Source: Desulfarculaceae bacterium (lineage in GTDB: Bacteria > Desulfobacterota > Desulfarculia > Desulfarculales > Desulfarculaceae). Taken from it: 64,000 nucleotides of DNA. Where the stretch lies: positions 434,001-498,000 of the forward strand of contig JAIPEN010000001.1 of assembly GCA_021737145.1 (NCBI GenBank), read 5' to 3'. Positions 7,226-64,000 of this stretch are shown one piece after another; the first letter of the stretch is position 1, and the number at the start of each line of letters is the position of its first letter. The notes beneath the pieces were generated by a model, which saw only the letters and a list, made by a program, of their open reading frames with translations, did no database searches and was not told the origin of the DNA. The translations under genes were made by a program, and so were the position numbers.

Positions 7226-8509
7226 CTACTTCTGAGAATCGTCATCCGGCGGGTTGTAATATAAGTCCACAATGTCTTCCACTTCCTTGGGGTACTGCAG
7301 CATCACGTCTTCGTAGTTGACATTGGCGGAGCCGGTCAGAAGAGGCTTTTTCTTGTTTTTTTCAAAAAGGCAGACCAGCACCTTGCCGTATTGATCCGGA
7401 GAGGCGAAATAAAAACCCCAGATCAAGGCATAGCGTGCACCAAGCTTGTCCAATATCTTGGCCAACACCCCAGTTTGGGCCTTGGTCAAGGGAGGACGCC
7501 ACAAGGCACCGAGACCTCCGCCCATAATGGCCGAACCGATTGACTGGTTGGAGCCGGTCTCTTTAAGAAAGTCGGTTATGGTGAACGGCGCGTAACTGAG
7601 CTTTAGCTCATCCATTTTTTCCTGCGAAACGCCGACTATCTCGCCGGGAACATCCGGCACCGTCTTCACCGCCTGGGCCACCTTTTCCGGGGTATACCCG
7701 TTGGGCCAATCCAAGGGGCCATAGTTGACATCAGGGTCTTTTATGCCCGGAGGGAGCACCACCATCCTGTTGGTGCTGGCGGCTGCGGGGGCGGGGGTTC
7801 CTTTCGGAGGGGCCTCGGTTTTGGTTTTGGATTCCTTCAACCTTTGCACGGGCAAAAACTGTTTGTCTTGCGGCCTGGCCTGCAGCTCATTAATCAGTTG
7901 TTGCTTATCACCCCGCACCAATTTGGCCATGGACCCGCCGTCCAGGACCTCAGTCACCTGTAGCACGGCAATGCGCCGCTCACGCACGATTTCGCCGCCG
8001 CCCGGGCGTGGGATCCGAGTTGTCTTGATCACGCCGAATTGCGAGCCGACCTTGACCCCCTGGCGCTTGTCCTGATCAACCATGAAATCATTTTCATGCC
8101 GCCACATCATCCCACCGGGCCGGGCTGTTTTGGCGGAGACGCTTGGCTTGGGGGCCTTTTCCCACAGCTCCATGACCACCGGCGAGAGATTCGGCGGCGG
8201 TTGATAGTTGGGGAGCGCCCCTTTGGCTGCGCTGAAATATTGGGTGGCCTTGGCCTTGTTCTCATAGATTACGTAGACCTGCCCCAAATAGAAATTTGCA
8301 TTCGCCTTGCCTCGATCCGACAAATCACCCGCGGCCAAGGCCTGTTCCAATGCCTTCAGGGCCTCTGGAAACTGGGCCCCCTCGAATAAAATTATGCCTT
8401 GGGTCAGCTGATCCTGGCTTGAAACAGTCTGTGATCCGGCGCTAGCGGGAAGGAGCCCCAAGAGCACACAAAAACAAAGCACCACCGCCAGACGATGCTG
8501 GAATTTCAT
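7226..8509 (-). CDS. Secreted TPR-containing protein of unknown function
   Basis: A 427-residue protein with a clear signal peptide (hydrophobic 7-22, cleavage near ASAGS). A TPR-like region follows (about 30-100, with the pattern QFPEALKALEQALAAG). A middle segment around VKVGSQFGVIKTTRIP resembles the small beta domains of flagellar or lipoprotein assembly factors. A Pro/Lys-rich linker leads to a C-terminal globular part. It begins five bases after the stop codon of the transmembrane kinase, with a GGGG ribosome site overlapping that stop, so the two are tightly coupled. It is a plausible periplasmic partner of the kinase's own TPR and PEGA domains. The function is not recognised. Confidence 0.6.
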   Translation of the reverse strand: MKFQHRLAVVLCFCVLLGLLPASAGSQTVSSQDQLTQGIILFEGAQFPEALKALEQALAAGDLSDRGKANANFYLGQVYVIYENKAKATQYFSAAKGALPNYQPPPNLSPVVMELWEKAPKPSVSAKTARPGGMMWRHENDFMVDQDKRQGVKVGSQFGVIKTTRIPRPGGGEIVRERRIAVLQVTEVLDGGSMAKLVRGDKQQLINELQARPQDKQFLPVQRLKESKTKTEAPPKGTPAPAAASTNRMVVLPPGIKDPDVNYGPLDWPNGYTPEKVAQAVKTVPDVPGEIVGVSQEKMDELKLSYAPFTITDFLKETGSNQSIGSAIMGGGLGALWRPPLTKAQTGVLAKILDKLGARYALIWGFYFASPDQYGKVLVCLFEKNKKKPLLTGSANVNYEDVMLQYPKEVEDIVDLYYNPPDDDSQK

Positions 8510-54398: not shown

Positions 54399-54935
54399 AT
54401 GCAACCAGCCTTTACCGTTTGGCTTACCGGCCCGCCCAACTCAGGCAAGACCACTCTGGCCGAGATACTCCGCGACGAGCTCACCTCCCTGGACTGCCCG
54501 GTGGAGCTGTTTGACGGCAATATCCTGCGTGACAAGCTTAGCCCCAACCTGGGCTTCTCCCGCTCGGACCGGGAGATGCACTGCCGCCGGGTGGCCTATT
54601 TCTGCTCGGTGCTCAACCGCCACGGAGTGGCCTGCATCGTGGCCCTCATCGCGCCCTACGAGGAGCTGCGCCAAGAGCTGCGCCAAGAGATCCCCGAATA
54701 TTACGAGGTTTTTCTGGATTGCCCTTTGGACACCCTGGCCGCGCGGGACACCAAGGGCCTCTATGCCAAGGCCCTGGCCGGCGAGCTGCCCAACTTCACC
54801 GGTGTCACCGATCCCTACGAGATTCCGGCCGCCGCCGAGCTGACTCTCGACACCCAGGACGAAAAGCCCGAGCAGTGCGTGGCCGCCATTCTCCGGGGGC
54901 TGCGCGAACAGGGCCTCCTGCCCGGTTTGGGCTAG
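54399..54935 (+). CDS. Adenylylsulfate kinase-like P-loop kinase (CysC family)
   Basis: A 178-residue P-loop kinase of the APS kinase family. The Walker A motif is GPPNSGKTT, and LFDGNILRDKLSPNLGFSRS follows. Typical CysC proteins read DGDxxR at this point; Asn replaces the second Asp here. The remainder (DCPLDTLAARDTKGLYAKAL, FTGVTDPYE) matches CysC. It could supply PAPS for glycan sulfation or phosphorylate another nucleotide-linked metabolite; no sulfotransferase is in view. Its stop shares the CTAG palindrome with the convergent gene's stop. Confidence 0.8.
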   Translation: MQPAFTVWLTGPPNSGKTTLAEILRDELTSLDCPVELFDGNILRDKLSPNLGFSRSDREMHCRRVAYFCSVLNRHGVACIVALIAPYEELRQELRQEIPEYYEVFLDCPLDTLAARDTKGLYAKALAGELPNFTGVTDPYEIPAAAELTLDTQDEKPEQCVAAILRGLREQGLLPGLG

Positions 54936-58500: not shown

Positions 58501-59499
58501 TCAGGCGGCTTCCTTGGCGACCAGCAACATCAGATGGGAGCTCAGGCGGTTCTGGGCCAAAAACTCCTGCAACCCGGCCCTCAGCTTCTCGTCCTCGCTG
58601 CCCACCAGATCGGCCCACAGGGGGTCCAGCTCGATTGCCGGGTTCTCGGCCAGGGTGTTGCGCACGATGTCCACGTCCAGCCGCCCGGGGGTGGTCAGCT
58701 CCAAAAGCTTGAAGCCGGAGCGGGCCAGCAGGCGCTCCAGGCCCGCGCGAGACGGGAAATTGATGTGATAGGGAGGCTGCACCGCCTTGGCGTGAGGGCC
58801 CAGCAGGCGGAGGTCAAAGCCGTCGCTGGTCAGGGTGGTCAAAAGCAGCAGCCCGCCCGGCCTGAGCACCTGGCCCGCTCCCCGCAGAAACACCGCCGGG
58901 TCGAACAGATGCTCCAGCACCTCGAAGGATACGGCCAGATCCACCGGCCCGTCGGCCGGGGTCAGGTCTTCCACGTTCTTGCCGATCACCTCGAAGCCCT
59001 TGTCCCGGCACACCGCGGCCAGGTCGGGCGAGCAGTCCACCCCGCGCACCTGGGCGAAGGCACCGGTCTTGGCCACCTCTTCCAACAGGATGCCAAAGCC
59101 CGAGCCCAGGTCCAAGAGAGAGCCGCCCTCCATGCCGTAGTCCCGGGCCAGACCGGCCAGATGGGCCGCGCGGGGCGCGAACATGCTCTCCCGGCGCGCG
59201 GCCTCGGTGGCCTTGTAGAAATCAGTGGCCCAATACTTCACCGAAGGGGCCTGCTCGTAGTAGCGGCCGATCATGTCCAGGGGGGGCCGGGGGGTGTTGT
59301 ACAGGCTGCCGCAGGCCTGGCAAACCACGTAGCTGAAGCCGTCCTTGACAAAGGCGTCCCGGGGCCGGTCTTCCGCGCAAACCGGGCAGGCCACGGCCAC
59401 GAAACGGCCTTGCTCCTGGAAAAAGTCGTGAGCATCCTGCTTGGCCAATTCCAGGTAGCGCGCGAAGATATCGGCCGGCCTGATGTCCTGTTCCTTCAT
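58501..59499 (-). CDS. SAM methyltransferase with N-terminal zinc-binding motif
   Basis: A 332-residue class I methyltransferase. It begins with a four-Cys module (VACPVCAEDRPRDAF, CQACGSLYNTPRPP), as in sugar C-methyltransferase relatives. The SAM motif is LLDLGSGFGILLEE, then VDCSPDLAA and SFEVLEHLFDPAVFL. A C-terminal part about 100 residues long ends SHLMLLVAKEAA. It is likely to methylate a polysaccharide sugar or its lipid carrier. It is the first gene of its leftward unit, in a divergent promoter region with the SDR gene. Confidence 0.85.
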   Translation of the reverse strand: MKEQDIRPADIFARYLELAKQDAHDFFQEQGRFVAVACPVCAEDRPRDAFVKDGFSYVVCQACGSLYNTPRPPLDMIGRYYEQAPSVKYWATDFYKATEAARRESMFAPRAAHLAGLARDYGMEGGSLLDLGSGFGILLEEVAKTGAFAQVRGVDCSPDLAAVCRDKGFEVIGKNVEDLTPADGPVDLAVSFEVLEHLFDPAVFLRGAGQVLRPGGLLLLTTLTSDGFDLRLLGPHAKAVQPPYHINFPSRAGLERLLARSGFKLLELTTPGRLDVDIVRNTLAENPAIELDPLWADLVGSEDEKLRAGLQEFLAQNRLSSHLMLLVAKEAA

Positions 59500-59689: not shown

Positions 59690-60439
59690 ATGAGCCTTCA
59701 GGTGAATATGGACGGACAGACCGCACTGGTCACCGGCGGGACCAGGGGCATCGGCGCGGCCATGGCCCAGGCCCTGGCCGGTTGTGGCTGCGCGGTCATC
59801 GCCATTGGCCGCGACCCGGAAGGCGTTGAACGCCTGAACCAGGAAAATGCAGGCGGACCCATAAGTTACTGGCAGGCCGATTTTGGCGACCCCGCTTCGC
59901 TGAACGGCTTCCTGGCGCGGGTGGAGTCCCTGCCCCGCCTGGAGGTGTGCGTCAACAACGCGGGCATCAACATTATCAAGCCCACCTCGGAGCTGAGCGA
60001 TGAAGAGTTCGCCCGGGTGGATCAGGTGAACCTGCGGGCCCCCTTTGCCGTGGCCCGGGCCGCGGCCAAGGTCATGGCCCGGACGGGCTACGGCCGCATA
60101 GTGAACATCGCCTCCATCTGGGGGGTGATGACCAAGCCGGGCCGGGCGGCCTACACCGCCAGCAAGCACGGCCTGGTGGGCCTGACCAAGACCCTGGCGG
60201 CTGATTTGGCCGGGAGCGGCATCCTGGTCAACGCCCTGTCCCCGGGCTTCACCCTCACCGAGCTGACCAAGGCCTCCCTGAGTCCGGCGGAGATGGACAC
60301 GCTCAGCGCCCAGGTGCCCATGGGCCGCTTTGCCGAACCGGCGGAGATGGCCCAGGCGGCTCTTTATCTGGCCAGCCCGGCCAACACCTACATCACCGGC
60401 CAAAACCTTATCGTGGACGGAGGCTTCACCCTTGTCTGA
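59690..60439 (+). CDS. Short-chain dehydrogenase/reductase (FabG-like; possible PtmA)
   Basis: A 249-residue classical SDR from the ATG at 59690, with AGAGGAG just upstream. The NAD(P) motif is VTGGTRGIGAAM; NNAGINI, the Ser in NIASIWGV and the YTASKHG catalytic pair follow. The protein ends with the family GQNLIVDGG motif. It heads a rightward operon and overlaps the next gene by eight bases. PtmA of legionaminate clusters is an SDR of this type, but polyol, cyclitol or fatty-acid roles also fit. Confidence 0.85.
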   Translation: MSLQVNMDGQTALVTGGTRGIGAAMAQALAGCGCAVIAIGRDPEGVERLNQENAGGPISYWQADFGDPASLNGFLARVESLPRLEVCVNNAGINIIKPTSELSDEEFARVDQVNLRAPFAVARAAAKVMARTGYGRIVNIASIWGVMTKPGRAAYTASKHGLVGLTKTLAADLAGSGILVNALSPGFTLTELTKASLSPAEMDTLSAQVPMGRFAEPAEMAQAALYLASPANTYITGQNLIVDGGFTLV

Positions 60440-61514
60440 GCAAGACGGCTTCAGCGTCAAATCCCTGCGCCGCGAGTATCAAGTGAGCTTTGTGGACGAC
60501 TTTGCCGGGGCCCTGGCCTCGGAGCTGGCTCCGGGCGACTTCCTGCTGGTGGACCGCAACCTCGGCCAGCTCTACGCTTCCCGCCTGGAGCCCCTGCTGA
60601 GCGCCCAGCCCCACCTGCTCATCACCGCCAATGAGGAGCAAAAGGAGTTCAGCGCCCTGGGCAAGATCATCGAGCAACTGATCGCCCAGGGGGTGCGCAA
60701 AAACCACCGCCTGGTGGCCATTGGCGGCGGGGTGACCCAGGACATCACCGGCTTCATCTCCTCGGTGCTCTACCGGGGCGTGGAGTGGCTGTTCGCGCCG
60801 TCCACCCTGCTGGCCCAGGCCGACTCCTGCATCGGCTCCAAGACCTCGGTGAACTTCGGGCCTTACAAGAACCAGTTGGGCTCTTTTTATCCGCCAGCCC
60901 ACATCTTCATCGATCCCGGCCTGCTCAACACCTTGTCCCCCTTGGACATGCGTTCGGGCATGGGCGAGATGATCCACTACTTCCTGGTCTCCGGGCGGAA
61001 GGATTTCGAGTTCATCCGCGACACCTACCCCGACTGCCTGCAAGACCGGCAAGCCCTCAAGGCGGCCATCGCCCGCAGCCTGGCCATCAAGCGGGAGATG
61101 ATCCAGCGCGACGAGTTTGACCAGGGCCCCCGCCAGGTGTTCAACTACGGCCACTCCTTTGGCCATGCCATCGAAACCCTGACCGACTACGCGGTGCCCC
61201 ACGGCGTGGCGGTGAGCTTCGGCATGGACCTGGCCAACTTTCTCTCCACCCGCCTGGGCTACATAGACCAGGACCTGCGCCAGGAGATACGCTCCCTGCT
61301 GGCCATGAACTGGGGCGACGCCAGCTTTTCCCAGGTAGGGGTGGAGGGCCTGATCGCGGCCCTGGGCAAGGACAAGAAAAACGAGGGCAGCCAGATCAAG
61401 GTGATCCTCACCAAGGGCCTGGGCCGGATGTTCAAGACCACCCTGGAGGTGGACGCCCGCTGCCGCGGCTGGCTGGAGGAGTACTTCGCCGACGCGGCCG
61501 CCCAGGGCAATTAA
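60432..61514 (+). CDS. AroB-like sugar-phosphate cyclase
   Basis: About 360 residues from a TTG at 60432 inside the SDR gene; the longer frame upstream is a shadow of that gene. It belongs to the 3-dehydroquinate synthase superfamily. The NAD site reads AIGGGVTQDITGF, and metal ligands are present as Glu in GMGEMIHYF and the two His in GHSFGHAIE and PHGVAVSFGM. But DHQ synthase's GGKTGVN is GSKTSVN here, and its catalytic Lys after the metal Glu is replaced (EMIHYF). It therefore probably cyclises another sugar phosphate. Its neighbours suggest a carbocyclic sugar for the surface glycan. Confidence 0.75.
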   Translation: MSEQDGFSVKSLRREYQVSFVDDFAGALASELAPGDFLLVDRNLGQLYASRLEPLLSAQPHLLITANEEQKEFSALGKIIEQLIAQGVRKNHRLVAIGGGVTQDITGFISSVLYRGVEWLFAPSTLLAQADSCIGSKTSVNFGPYKNQLGSFYPPAHIFIDPGLLNTLSPLDMRSGMGEMIHYFLVSGRKDFEFIRDTYPDCLQDRQALKAAIARSLAIKREMIQRDEFDQGPRQVFNYGHSFGHAIETLTDYAVPHGVAVSFGMDLANFLSTRLGYIDQDLRQEIRSLLAMNWGDASFSQVGVEGLIAALGKDKKNEGSQIKVILTKGLGRMFKTTLEVDARCRGWLEEYFADAAAQGN

Positions 61515-61592
61515 CCCCGATTCCCGTGGCTTGCAAAGCCCGGCCACTTTGCTATGCTCCTAAGTCGCCGGGCCGCCAGGCCGGCGCAACCC

Positions 61593-62540
61593 ATGCCGGA
61601 GAACGACTTGAGCGCCGCCCCTATTAAAATCCTGCTGGGCCCCTCCTCCTTCGGGTCCGCCGACCCCGCCCCCCTGGAGCGCCTCAAGGCCGCCGGCCTG
61701 GAGGTGGTGGACAACCCCTTCAAGCGCAAGCTCACCCAACAAGAGCTTTTGGACCTGCTGCCCGGCATCACCGGCATCATCGCCGGGCTGGAGCCCCTGA
61801 ACCGCGCGGTCATGGCCGCCTCGCAGCTCAAGGTCATCTCCCGGGTGGGAGTGGGTCTGAACAACGTGGACCTGGAGGCCGCGGCCGAGCTGGGCATCGC
61901 GGTGCGCTACACCCCGGACGCCCCCACCATCGCGGTGGCCGAGCTGACCTTGGGCTGCCTGCTAAACCTGCTGCGCCGGGTGGGCGAGATGGACCGCTCC
62001 CTGCACGCCTGCCGGTGGAACAAGTGCGTGGGTTATCAGCTCACCGGCCGCACCGTCTTGCTGGTGGGCCTGGGCCGCATCGGCCTGGCCGTGGCCCGGC
62101 TGCTGGAGCCCTTCCGGGTGCGCCTGCTGGGCTGCGACCCGGCCGTGGACCAGGCCCCGGCGGGCATCGAGCTGGTCAGCCTGCAAGAGGGCCTTGCCCA
62201 GGCGGACGTTATCAGCCTGCACGCCTCGGGAACCGAGCCCATTTTGGGGCCCGGGGAGCTGGCCGATATCAAGCCGGGCGCCTTTTTGCTCAACCCCTCG
62301 CGGGGCGAGCTGGTTGACGAGCAGGGGCTTGTCGCCGCCCTGGACCAGGGCCGCCTGGCCGGGGCCTGGCTGGACGCCTTTTGGCGCGAGCCCTATGACG
62401 GCCCCCTCACCGGATATGAAAACGTGCTGCTGACCCCCCACGTGGGCTCCTACTCGGCCGAGTGCCGCTTGGACATGGAGATGCAGGCGGTGGACAACCT
62501 CTTGGAGGCCCTGGGCCTGGCAAAGGATTCCGAAGCATGA
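61593..62540 (+). CDS. D-2-hydroxyacid dehydrogenase (phosphoglycerate dehydrogenase-like)
   Basis: About 315 residues from the ATG at 61593; a TTG at 61608 with GGAG upstream is a credible alternative. The NAD-binding Rossmann motif is VLLVGLGRIGLAVARLL, and the catalytic Arg and His lie in LNPSRGELVD and LTPHVGSYSA. It has no ACT domain. It would oxidise or reduce a 2-hydroxy acid, which might be a precursor of the KdsB-type substrate. It is 78 bases after the AroB-like gene and overlaps the KdsB gene by ATGA. Confidence 0.85.
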   Translation: MPENDLSAAPIKILLGPSSFGSADPAPLERLKAAGLEVVDNPFKRKLTQQELLDLLPGITGIIAGLEPLNRAVMAASQLKVISRVGVGLNNVDLEAAAELGIAVRYTPDAPTIAVAELTLGCLLNLLRRVGEMDRSLHACRWNKCVGYQLTGRTVLLVGLGRIGLAVARLLEPFRVRLLGCDPAVDQAPAGIELVSLQEGLAQADVISLHASGTEPILGPGELADIKPGAFLLNPSRGELVDEQGLVAALDQGRLAGAWLDAFWREPYDGPLTGYENVLLTPHVGSYSAECRLDMEMQAVDNLLEALGLAKDSEA

Positions 62541-63289
62541 GAATCGTGGCCTTCATCCCGGCCCGCATGGCCGCCACCCGCTTTCCGGGCAAGCCCCTGG
62601 CCATGATCGCGGGCCTCCCCATGATCGAACATGTGCGCCGCCGGGCGATGATGAGCGAGCTCATGGACGAGGTGGTGGTGGCCACCTGCGACCAGGAGAT
62701 CCACGACACGGTGACCAAGCACGGCGGCAAGGCGGTGATGACCGCGGACACCCACGTGCGCTGCACCGACCGCATCGCCGAGGCCGGCCTGAACGTGGAG
62801 GCCGACGTGGTGGTCAATCTGCAGGGCGACGAGCCCCTGGTCATGCCCGAGATGCTCACCAAGGTGGCCCAGCCCCTTATCGACGACCCGGAGCTGCCCG
62901 CGGCCAACCTGGTCAGCCCCATTCTGGACGACCAGGAGTTCAACGACCCCAACGCGCCCAAGGTGGTTCTCAACCTGGCCGGCGACATCCTCTACATCTC
63001 CCGCGAGCCCATCCCCTCGCTAAAGAAGGCCGACAGCACCGATTTCCGCAAGCTCAAGCAGTTGGGCATCATCGCTTTTAGGAGCGATTTCTTGCAGACC
63101 TTCACCAAGCTGGCGCCCACTCCCCTGGAGATCGTGGAGTCGGTGGACATGAACCGGGCCCTGGAGCACGGCTTCCGGGTAAAGGCGGTGGAGGTGGCCG
63201 GCCGCATGATCGGGGTGGACATGCCCGGCGACGTGGCCCGGGTGGAAGCCCAGCTGGCAAACGACCCCCTGTTCGACCAATACCGCTGA
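62537..63289 (+). CDS. KdsB-like CMP-sugar-acid cytidylyltransferase
   Basis: A 250-residue protein of the KdsB (3-deoxy-manno-octulosonate cytidylyltransferase) family. FIPARMAATRFPGKPL is the nucleotide-binding start, and NLQGDEPLV is the metal/CTP motif. The substrate loop reads HVRCTDR where KdsB has H.SGTDR. It would activate a keto-deoxy sugar acid with CTP. Its place after a cyclase, an SDR and a 2-hydroxyacid dehydrogenase, and before a Gfo/Idh protein, points to a special substrate rather than housekeeping Kdo. It could even stand in for LegF. Confidence 0.85.
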   Translation: MRIVAFIPARMAATRFPGKPLAMIAGLPMIEHVRRRAMMSELMDEVVVATCDQEIHDTVTKHGGKAVMTADTHVRCTDRIAEAGLNVEADVVVNLQGDEPLVMPEMLTKVAQPLIDDPELPAANLVSPILDDQEFNDPNAPKVVLNLAGDILYISREPIPSLKKADSTDFRKLKQLGIIAFRSDFLQTFTKLAPTPLEIVESVDMNRALEHGFRVKAVEVAGRMIGVDMPGDVARVEAQLANDPLFDQYR

Positions 63290-63299
63290 GAGAGGGCCC

Positions 63300-64000
63300 A
63301 TGGCTGCCAAAAAATACCAGGTGGGCATAGCCGGCTACGGAGTGGTGGGCCAGCGCCGCAGGGAGCAGATAGACCAGCACCCCGGCCTGACCACCGTGGC
63401 CCTGTGCGACGTGACCTTCCCCGAGGCCGGGACCATGAGCGACGGGGTGCGCTACTTCCCCACCTACCGGGAGCTTTTGGACCAGGAGCTGGACATGCTC
63501 TTCGTGAGCCTGCCCAATTACCTGGCCGCCGAGGTTACCATCGCCGGGCTGGAGCGGGGCCTGCACGTGTTCTGCGAAAAGCCTCCCGGCCGCGCGGTGG
63601 AGGACATAGAGCGGGTGATCGAGGCGGAAAAGGCCAACCCCGGCCTGGCCTTGAAGTACGGCTTCAACCACCGCTACCACGACTCGGTGCGCCGGGCCCT
63701 GGACCTGGTGGCCTCCGGCGAGCTGGGCCCCATCGTCAATCTCAGGGGCATCTACGGCAAGAGCAGCATCATCCCCTTTTCCGGCGGCTGGCGGGCCGAG
63801 CGCGCCCAGGCCGGCGGCGGCATCCTGTTGGACCAGGGCATCCACATGGTGGATCTGATGCGCCTGTTCTGCGGCGAGTTCCGCGAGGTCAAGAGCTTCG
63901 TGAGCAACAGCTACTGGAACCACGACGTGGAGGACAACGCCTTTGCCCTGATGAAGGACGCCCAGGGCCGGGTGGCCATGCTGCAATCAACCGCCACCCA
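63300..64000 (+). CDS. Gfo/Idh/MocA-family oxidoreductase (3'-partial)
   Basis: The first 233 residues of a sugar/cyclitol oxidoreductase, cut by the window end. The N-terminal Rossmann part has VGIAGYGVVGQRRREQID and the conserved HVFCEKPPGRAVEDIE, whose EKP lysine is catalytic. The substrate domain starts with KYGFNHRYHDSV and GGGILLDQGIHMVDLMR. It begins ten bases after the KdsB-like stop with a GAGAGAGG site. Family members oxidise sugars or inositols at a ring carbon, so it fits a carbasugar or deoxysugar route. Confidence 0.88.
   Translation, partial: MAAKKYQVGIAGYGVVGQRRREQIDQHPGLTTVALCDVTFPEAGTMSDGVRYFPTYRELLDQELDMLFVSLPNYLAAEVTIAGLERGLHVFCEKPPGRAVEDIERVIEAEKANPGLALKYGFNHRYHDSVRRALDLVASGELGPIVNLRGIYGKSSIIPFSGGWRAERAQAGGGILLDQGIHMVDLMRLFCGEFREVKSFVSNSYWNHDVEDNAFALMKDAQGRVAMLQSTAT

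Follow-up and report, generated by a model that had tools for sequence, protein, structure and literature searches.

A cyclase-centred operon of a Desulfarculaceae bacterium and a possible CMP-activated carbocyclic acid of surface glycans

What would be made by an operon in which a relative of AroB, the 3-dehydroquinate synthase (DHQS), shares a row of genes with a relative of KdsB, the enzyme that links cytidine monophosphate (CMP) to 3-deoxy-D-manno-oct-2-ulosonic acid (Kdo)? The question is raised by five genes at the end of a 64,000-nucleotide stretch of DNA from a Desulfarculaceae bacterium. This whole stretch, here called the window, is C11:434001-498000 of a 4.03 Mb genome, and the nearest named relative among the genomes searched is a Desulfarculus metagenome-assembled genome (MAG). 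We propose, with a rough probability of 0.43, that the operon is a dedicated surface-glycan pathway, outside aromatic biosynthesis, that makes a CMP-activated, quinate-like carbocyclic acid. That its genes are linked in one pathway is well supported. We infer that the CMP is carried by the carbocycle itself, and the substrate, the order of steps and the product are inferred likewise. The five genes are as follows.

59690-60439, + strand: short-chain dehydrogenase/reductase (SDR) oxidoreductase, 249 aa (Pfam/NCBIfam)
60432-61514, + strand: AroB-like cyclase (AroB-related cyclizing sugar-phosphate phospholyase, TIGR04425), 360 aa, TTG start
61593-62540, + strand: D-isomer-specific 2-hydroxyacid dehydrogenase, 315 aa (Pfam/NCBIfam)
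62537-63289, + strand: KdsB-like CTP:sugar-acid cytidylyltransferase, 250 aa (Pfam/NCBIfam)
63300-64000, + strand, running beyond the window to C11:498340 (window-equivalent 64340): Gfo/Idh/MocA oxidoreductase, 346 aa (Pfam/NCBIfam)

Against TIGR04425 the cyclase reaches 429.8 bits, where the curated cut-off is 400; against the aroB equivalog it reaches 271 bits, short of the 305 required. NCBIfam defines TIGR04425 as a hypothetical equivalog, "AroB-related putative sugar phosphate phospholyase (cyclizing)", and the family itself has no assigned substrate or product. The same cut-off is passed by the cyclases of L040 (Desulfarculus SURF_10), L041 and the phage member L113; those of L107 and L154 fall slightly under it. 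Only one of 198 genomes of the phylum holds a protein over the cut-off, and the clade is rare among the cellular genomes sampled. It is common in IMG/VR, where one scan with six cyclases gave 103 confirmed relatives, of which 80 were kept and 70 remained after removal of repeats. Adding six loci from cellular collections, among them the probably viral L041, gives the 76 clade loci compared here. Phylogenetic trees separate the TIGR04425-like proteins from DHQS as a single clade, with support of 100/98 for six members and 100/99 for 76. The AlphaFold model of the window cyclase (mean pLDDT 90.8) matches DHQS best, then 2-deoxy-scyllo-inosose synthase (DOIS), then the valiolone synthase ValA. 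A second AroB, apparently of the shikimate type, is encoded on contig C6 of the same genome, near genes for 3-deoxy-D-arabino-heptulosonate 7-phosphate (DAHP) synthase, type II dehydroquinase and 5-enolpyruvylshikimate-3-phosphate synthase (neighbours named from sequence by eye). Judged from its sequence, the window cyclase is a cyclizing phospholyase distinct from AroB and not the shikimate-pathway enzyme. An earlier sequence-only reading of this DNA had named a cyclase making 3-dehydroquinate as a finding against its proposal; what the genome holds is a separate AroB among aromatic genes.

What, then, does the cyclase act on? Eleven residues of DHQS contact DAHP (PMC6262012). The window cyclase shares with AroB the fold, the metal ligands and ten of these eleven residues, the sole change being Lys197 to His182, so that the sequence-only description of a cyclase with altered key residues was overstated. 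It differs from AroB in its separate clade, in the replacement of Ser148 by Cys as well as of Lys197 by His, and in a glycan setting with an SDR. Two codons mark the pocket.

60975-60977, + strand: codon of His182, at the position of DHQS Lys197; the sole substitution among the 11 DAHP-contact residues
61131-61133, + strand: codon of Arg234, equivalent to DHQS Arg264, kept in 76/76 clade members

The equivalents of both Arg264 and Lys356 are present in all 76 clade members. The pocket of DOIS, unlike that of the window cyclase, has lost Arg264 (Gly) and carries Glu for Asn268, and two other cyclases, both encoded on plasmids, have Ala for Arg264 and Leu for Lys356. In complexes of DHQS, the DAHP carboxylate is bound by Arg264. 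The retention of Arg264 and Lys356 therefore argues for a carboxylate-bearing substrate of the DAHP type. A DAHP-like 2-keto sugar-acid phosphate is the likely substrate, rather than the sedoheptulose-7-phosphate or glucose-6-phosphate that had been put forward for assay alongside DAHP and that this pocket disfavors. The cyclase may also make 3-dehydroquinate itself for the glycan pathway. Ser148 is Cys in all 76 members, a count that is partly built in, as the viral scan used DSCIG as one of two seeds; the counts for Arg264, Lys356 and Lys197 are unaffected by this seeding. Lys197 is His in 28 of the 38 loci with a CMP-sugar synthetase (CMP-type) and in none of the 35 loci with a thiamine diphosphate (ThDP) enzyme (ThDP-type).

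The KdsB-like protein scores 166.7 bits against TIGR00466 (cut-off 155.2). It keeps Lys19, Asp98 and Asp228; the lysine and two Mg-binding aspartates are the catalytic residues of CMP-Kdo synthetase (PMC3149649). Unlike KdsB, it groups with 23 other proteins in a distinct paralogue clade (support 100/99), and both Kdo-side motifs are replaced, KHIGxY by KQLGII and ExLEQLR by ESVDMNR. Across the paralogue clade Lys19 and the two aspartates are kept, ES[VIC]DxxR stands for E.LEQLR, and mostly KQxxII for KHIGxY. Since the catalytic residues are kept and the Kdo-side motifs replaced, CMP transfer is expected of this enzyme, with an acceptor that is probably not Kdo. A separate, better-scoring KdsB lies on contig C9, so the window copy is not the only one in the genome; a sole copy that uses Kdo had been the other finding named as adverse. 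We rejected the window copy as the housekeeping KdsB, as it is the paralogue of the two.

Paralogues of the same clade also occur away from any cyclase. In L077, L078, L080 and L082 the KdsB paralogue lies with a related 2-hydroxyacid dehydrogenase, an HpcH/HpaI aldolase, an epimerase and a haloacid dehalogenase (HAD) phosphatase. Cyclase-free clusters with an HpcH/HpaI-type aldolase extend to L083, L084 and L088, and most of these seven clusters add a 2-hydroxyacid dehydrogenase, an NAD-dependent epimerase, a HAD phosphatase or a methyltransferase; they look like another CMP-sugar-acid pathway in the phylum. L099 has the paralogue with a Gfo/Idh protein (55% identity), an SIS protein (44%) and an inositol-monophosphatase-family protein. 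This row (G342:C8, 4125 bases) is cut by the contig ends, and a cyclase could lie past them. The housekeeping-type KdsB on C9 (L101 7098-10413) adjoins a DegT aminotransferase and an iron-containing alcohol dehydrogenase, an arrangement reminiscent of the KdnA/KdnB cassette that makes 8-amino-Kdo; a specific match to KdnA/KdnB was not obtained there with NCBIfam.

How firmly do the five genes belong together? They had been described as consecutive and overlapping. They are indeed consecutive and co-directional, with the families borne out by Pfam/NCBIfam, but only two of the four junctions overlap: SDR/cyclase by 8 nt, where the TTG start of the cyclase overlaps the SDR stop, and 2-hydroxyacid dehydrogenase/KdsB-like by 4 nt. 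Gaps of 78 nt (cyclase/2-hydroxyacid dehydrogenase) and 10 nt (KdsB-like/Gfo/Idh) separate the others. The Gfo/Idh gene is complete as L003 5301-6341, and the run continues beyond it.

C11:498361-498987, outside the window, after the Gfo/Idh gene: GmhA-like SIS isomerase
After the SIS gene, reaching near the contig end: rmlB, rmlD, rmlA and rmlC (named from sequence by eye)

Because the run continues into the SIS gene and the four rml genes, it is one end of a nucleotide-sugar operon within a polysaccharide locus.

The whole gene order, SIS included, recurs in Desulfarculus SURF_10 (L040) at 68-81% identity, and a distant member of the phylum (L087) has counterparts of the five window genes side by side, at 33-57% identity. 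Equivalents of the five-gene set, with a PseF/NeuA-like synthetase, are present in the phage loci L157, L159 and L174; in L174 the dehydrogenase, Gfo/Idh, SIS, SDR, cyclase and CMP synthetase genes all stand in a row. Gene calls in the loci fetched for comparison were mechanical. Since the order is kept in L040, the adjacency in L087 and equivalents in phage contigs, the gene set is, as far as sequence comparison can tell, more than a chance association, and the neighborhood search bears out the proposal that these genes form a set. Among the clade loci, the 2-hydroxyacid dehydrogenase and Gfo/Idh genes were found as a pair in 7/7 cases.

The gene directly upstream of the cyclase encodes an SDR in 66 of the 76 loci and a DegT aminotransferase in seven. 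Around the cyclase there are three gene settings, which hardly mix. Type I (n=32) is marked by a PseF/NeuA-like CMP synthetase, which several loci carry as a cupin fusion; an SIS protein is nearly always present, and a class III aminotransferase and a GT29-like protein are often added. Type II (n=35) has a ThDP enzyme, accompanied in 22 loci by an HpcH-like aldolase and in 11 by a NeuB-like synthase, and never a CMP synthetase. NeuB- and HpcH-type enzymes make 2-keto-3-deoxy acids, and their presence in Type II fits the 2-keto acid substrate suggested by the pocket. Type III (n=7), which includes the window operon, has the 2-hydroxyacid dehydrogenase and Gfo/Idh pair, with a CMP synthetase in 6/7. 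It arises at least five times on the cyclase tree, so this pair has repeatedly joined the cyclase. A CMP-sugar synthetase lies near the cyclase in 38/76 loci, 35 of them PseF/NeuA-like and mostly in phages, and three KdsB-like and bacterial. Two cytidylyltransferase families filling the same place suggest that the reaction is kept and that this is not mere descent. The proposed CMP activation by the KdsB-like partner holds to the extent that a CMP synthetase recurs; the CMP would be attached to the carbocycle itself. GT29 (sialyltransferase-family) genes accompany 18/35 of the PseF/NeuA-type loci.

The flanks of L157, L113, L117, L128 and L159 carry genes for a clamp loader, a primase, a baseplate hub, an endolysin, a late sigma factor and a DNA helicase, and at least these five are therefore phages, some of them T4-like. 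L041 (JACAFS010000027.1) is recorded as a contig of a thaumarchaeal MAG, and its cyclase is the sister of that of L128. The two contigs have most of the L041 glycan genes in common, with matches of 42-92% by best reference hit and of 86-92% for several. L128 comes from IMG/VR and carries genes for a late sigma factor and a baseplate, so L041 is probably a phage contig binned with a Thaumarchaeota MAG. In most of the IMG/VR contigs (L107-L186) the cyclase lies near position 8001, and a TIGR04425-type cyclase with an adjacent SDR is common. L157 10774-12006 encodes a 410-aa protein whose N-terminal part looks GT29-like by eye and which ends in an SIS domain; it may be a fusion that joins the SIS isomerase to a transferase for CMP-sugars.

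In the pathway that we propose, the cyclase would close the carbon ring of a 2-keto sugar-acid phosphate, either DAHP or a DAHP-like hept-2-ulosonate 7-phosphate. It would follow the DHQS sequence (transient oxidation by NAD+, phosphate loss, re-reduction, ring opening and aldol closure). The keto acid released, similar to 3-dehydroquinate, would be reduced to a quinate-like acid by the SDR, to which the cyclase is tightly coupled. The KdsB-like enzyme would then transfer CMP from CTP to the tertiary alcohol next to the carboxylate. The substituents at C1 of quinate (OH, COOH, CH2) would match those at C2 of Kdo or sialic acid, except that CH2 takes the place of the ring oxygen. To give every gene a role, a working route would convert sedoheptulose-7-phosphate to heptose-7-phosphate (SIS), heptonate-7-phosphate (Gfo/Idh) and the 2-keto acid (2-hydroxyacid dehydrogenase), ahead of the cyclase, the SDR and CMP transfer.

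Several points weigh against this pathway. The route from sedoheptulose-7-phosphate through the SIS, Gfo/Idh and 2-hydroxyacid dehydrogenase enzymes is speculation drawn from enzyme classes alone. The dehydrogenase and KdsB-like pair also occurs without any cyclase (L077, L078, L080, L082) and could therefore act on an ordinary ulosonic acid, and the cyclase and SDR pair occurs without a CMP synthetase in the 35 ThDP-type loci. Normal glycosyl transfer is stabilized by the ring oxygen; a carbocyclic CMP ester has no such oxygen, and its use would call for an unusual transferase. The GT29 match is a weak one, at 24.9 bits versus 23.

The separate occurrence of the two pairs would also suit a different reading, an operon for two building blocks. 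The dehydrogenase and KdsB-like enzyme, with other enzymes, would make an ordinary CMP-ulosonic acid, and the SDR and cyclase would add to the same glycan a cyclitol acid that is not CMP-activated. This is almost as likely as the pathway we favor: the first module stands cyclase-free with an HpcH/HpaI aldolase in the four clusters, and the second stands in the 35 ThDP-type loci. However, six of the seven loci with the dehydrogenase and Gfo/Idh pair have both the cyclase and a CMP synthetase, and at least five independent assemblies with two synthetase families favor one pathway over two products. It is less probable, and on the whole unlikely, that the cyclase is a second DHQS, through which dehydroquinate, quinate or a related acid is made from DAHP to serve the glycan as precursor or acyl substituent, so that the ring would carry no CMP. 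Such a reaction would require no new chemistry, the predicted fold is closest to DHQS and 10/11 pocket residues are kept; against it, the protein sits in a separate clade and under the aroB cut-off, Lys197 is altered in most CMP-type members, and no acyl-transferring or acyl-activating gene was identified in the operon.

The remaining two explanations are much weaker. One is a sedoheptulose-7-phosphate or glucose-6-phosphate cyclase whose product would be a neutral, valiolone- or inosose-type carbasugar; cyclitol routes typically have SDR and Gfo/Idh partners, and the GmhA-like isomerase suggests sedoheptulose-7-phosphate nearby. We hold this to be very improbable, given that Arg264 and Lys356 are kept 76/76, whereas DOIS has Gly and Glu at Arg264 and Asn268 and the two plasmid-borne cyclases have lost both Arg264 and Lys356. 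A redundant shikimate-pathway AroB, beside polysaccharide genes by chance, has homology to AroB in its favor and is largely refuted by the C6 copy with its aromatic-pathway neighbors, the separate clade, the near-constant SDR partner and the glycan neighborhoods.

How does the proposed CMP-carbocycle pathway compare with known systems? Acarbose-type routes share its logic of cyclase, dehydrogenase and nucleotide activation of the cyclitol, but activation there is not by a CMP-ulosonate synthetase; for acarbose it is GDP-linked (PMC9200736). EboD is another uncharacterized sugar phosphate cyclase lineage of the superfamily mis-annotated as AroB, but it has its own operon (ebo) and is placed near the sedoheptulose-7-phosphate enzymes (PMC5133447). 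There is precedent for carbocycles in the surface polysaccharides of bacteria, namely caryose and bradyrhizose, two carbocyclic sugars of lipopolysaccharide (PMC9671505, PMC4743980). As of 2016, the genes that make bradyrhizose were described as unknown (PMC4743980). A search of open-licence papers on TIGR04425, carbocyclic O-antigen and phage CMP-sugar or aroB genes found nothing on this gene set, in keeping with the earlier remark that a described pathway with it was not known.

The cyclase family was already known, as a hypothetical equivalog defined by NCBI. As far as these searches reach, the SDR partner, the three gene settings and the presence in phage contigs are additions made here, as are the DHQS-like pocket and the link to CMP synthetases. 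Recurrence in distant bacteria and dozens of phage genomes, often beside a CMP-sugar synthetase, suggests an undescribed surface sugar. To our knowledge, CMP-activated sugars are so far only of the Kdo and sialic acid types. If the proposal is true, a carbocyclic acid joins them and TIGR04425 gains a clear target for its function; a proven CMP-carbocycle would be a new class of activated sugar. That wider claim is more tentative than the pathway itself. In it, an SDR/cyclase module common to bacteria and T4-like phages would yield a CMP-quinate-like donor, a carbocyclic counterpart of Kdo or sialic acid linked to CMP, which the phages would use in their own or host surface glycans. An "aroB" in a viral contig can be a glycan cyclase and not a shikimate gene, which makes mis-annotation easy.

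Other searches for relatives gave little. Plasmid tblastn returned mostly ordinary aroB-annotated genes, and the matches of tblastn against phage records look like ordinary bacterial aroB genes. A single-protein scan of genome contigs gave three relatives only, its patterns being too specific. PHROGs held no family for the one phage cyclase tested (L157), and Foldseek against viral models (BFVD) found no relative.

Two further genes of the window lie upstream of the operon.

58501-59499, - strand, divergent from the operon: S-adenosylmethionine (SAM) methyltransferase
54399-54935, inside the polysaccharide region: candidate small P-loop kinase, resembling adenylylsulfate kinase

The methyltransferase has relatives of 39-40% identity in the KdsB-paralogue clusters L080, L082 and L083, and its part in the pathway is uncertain.

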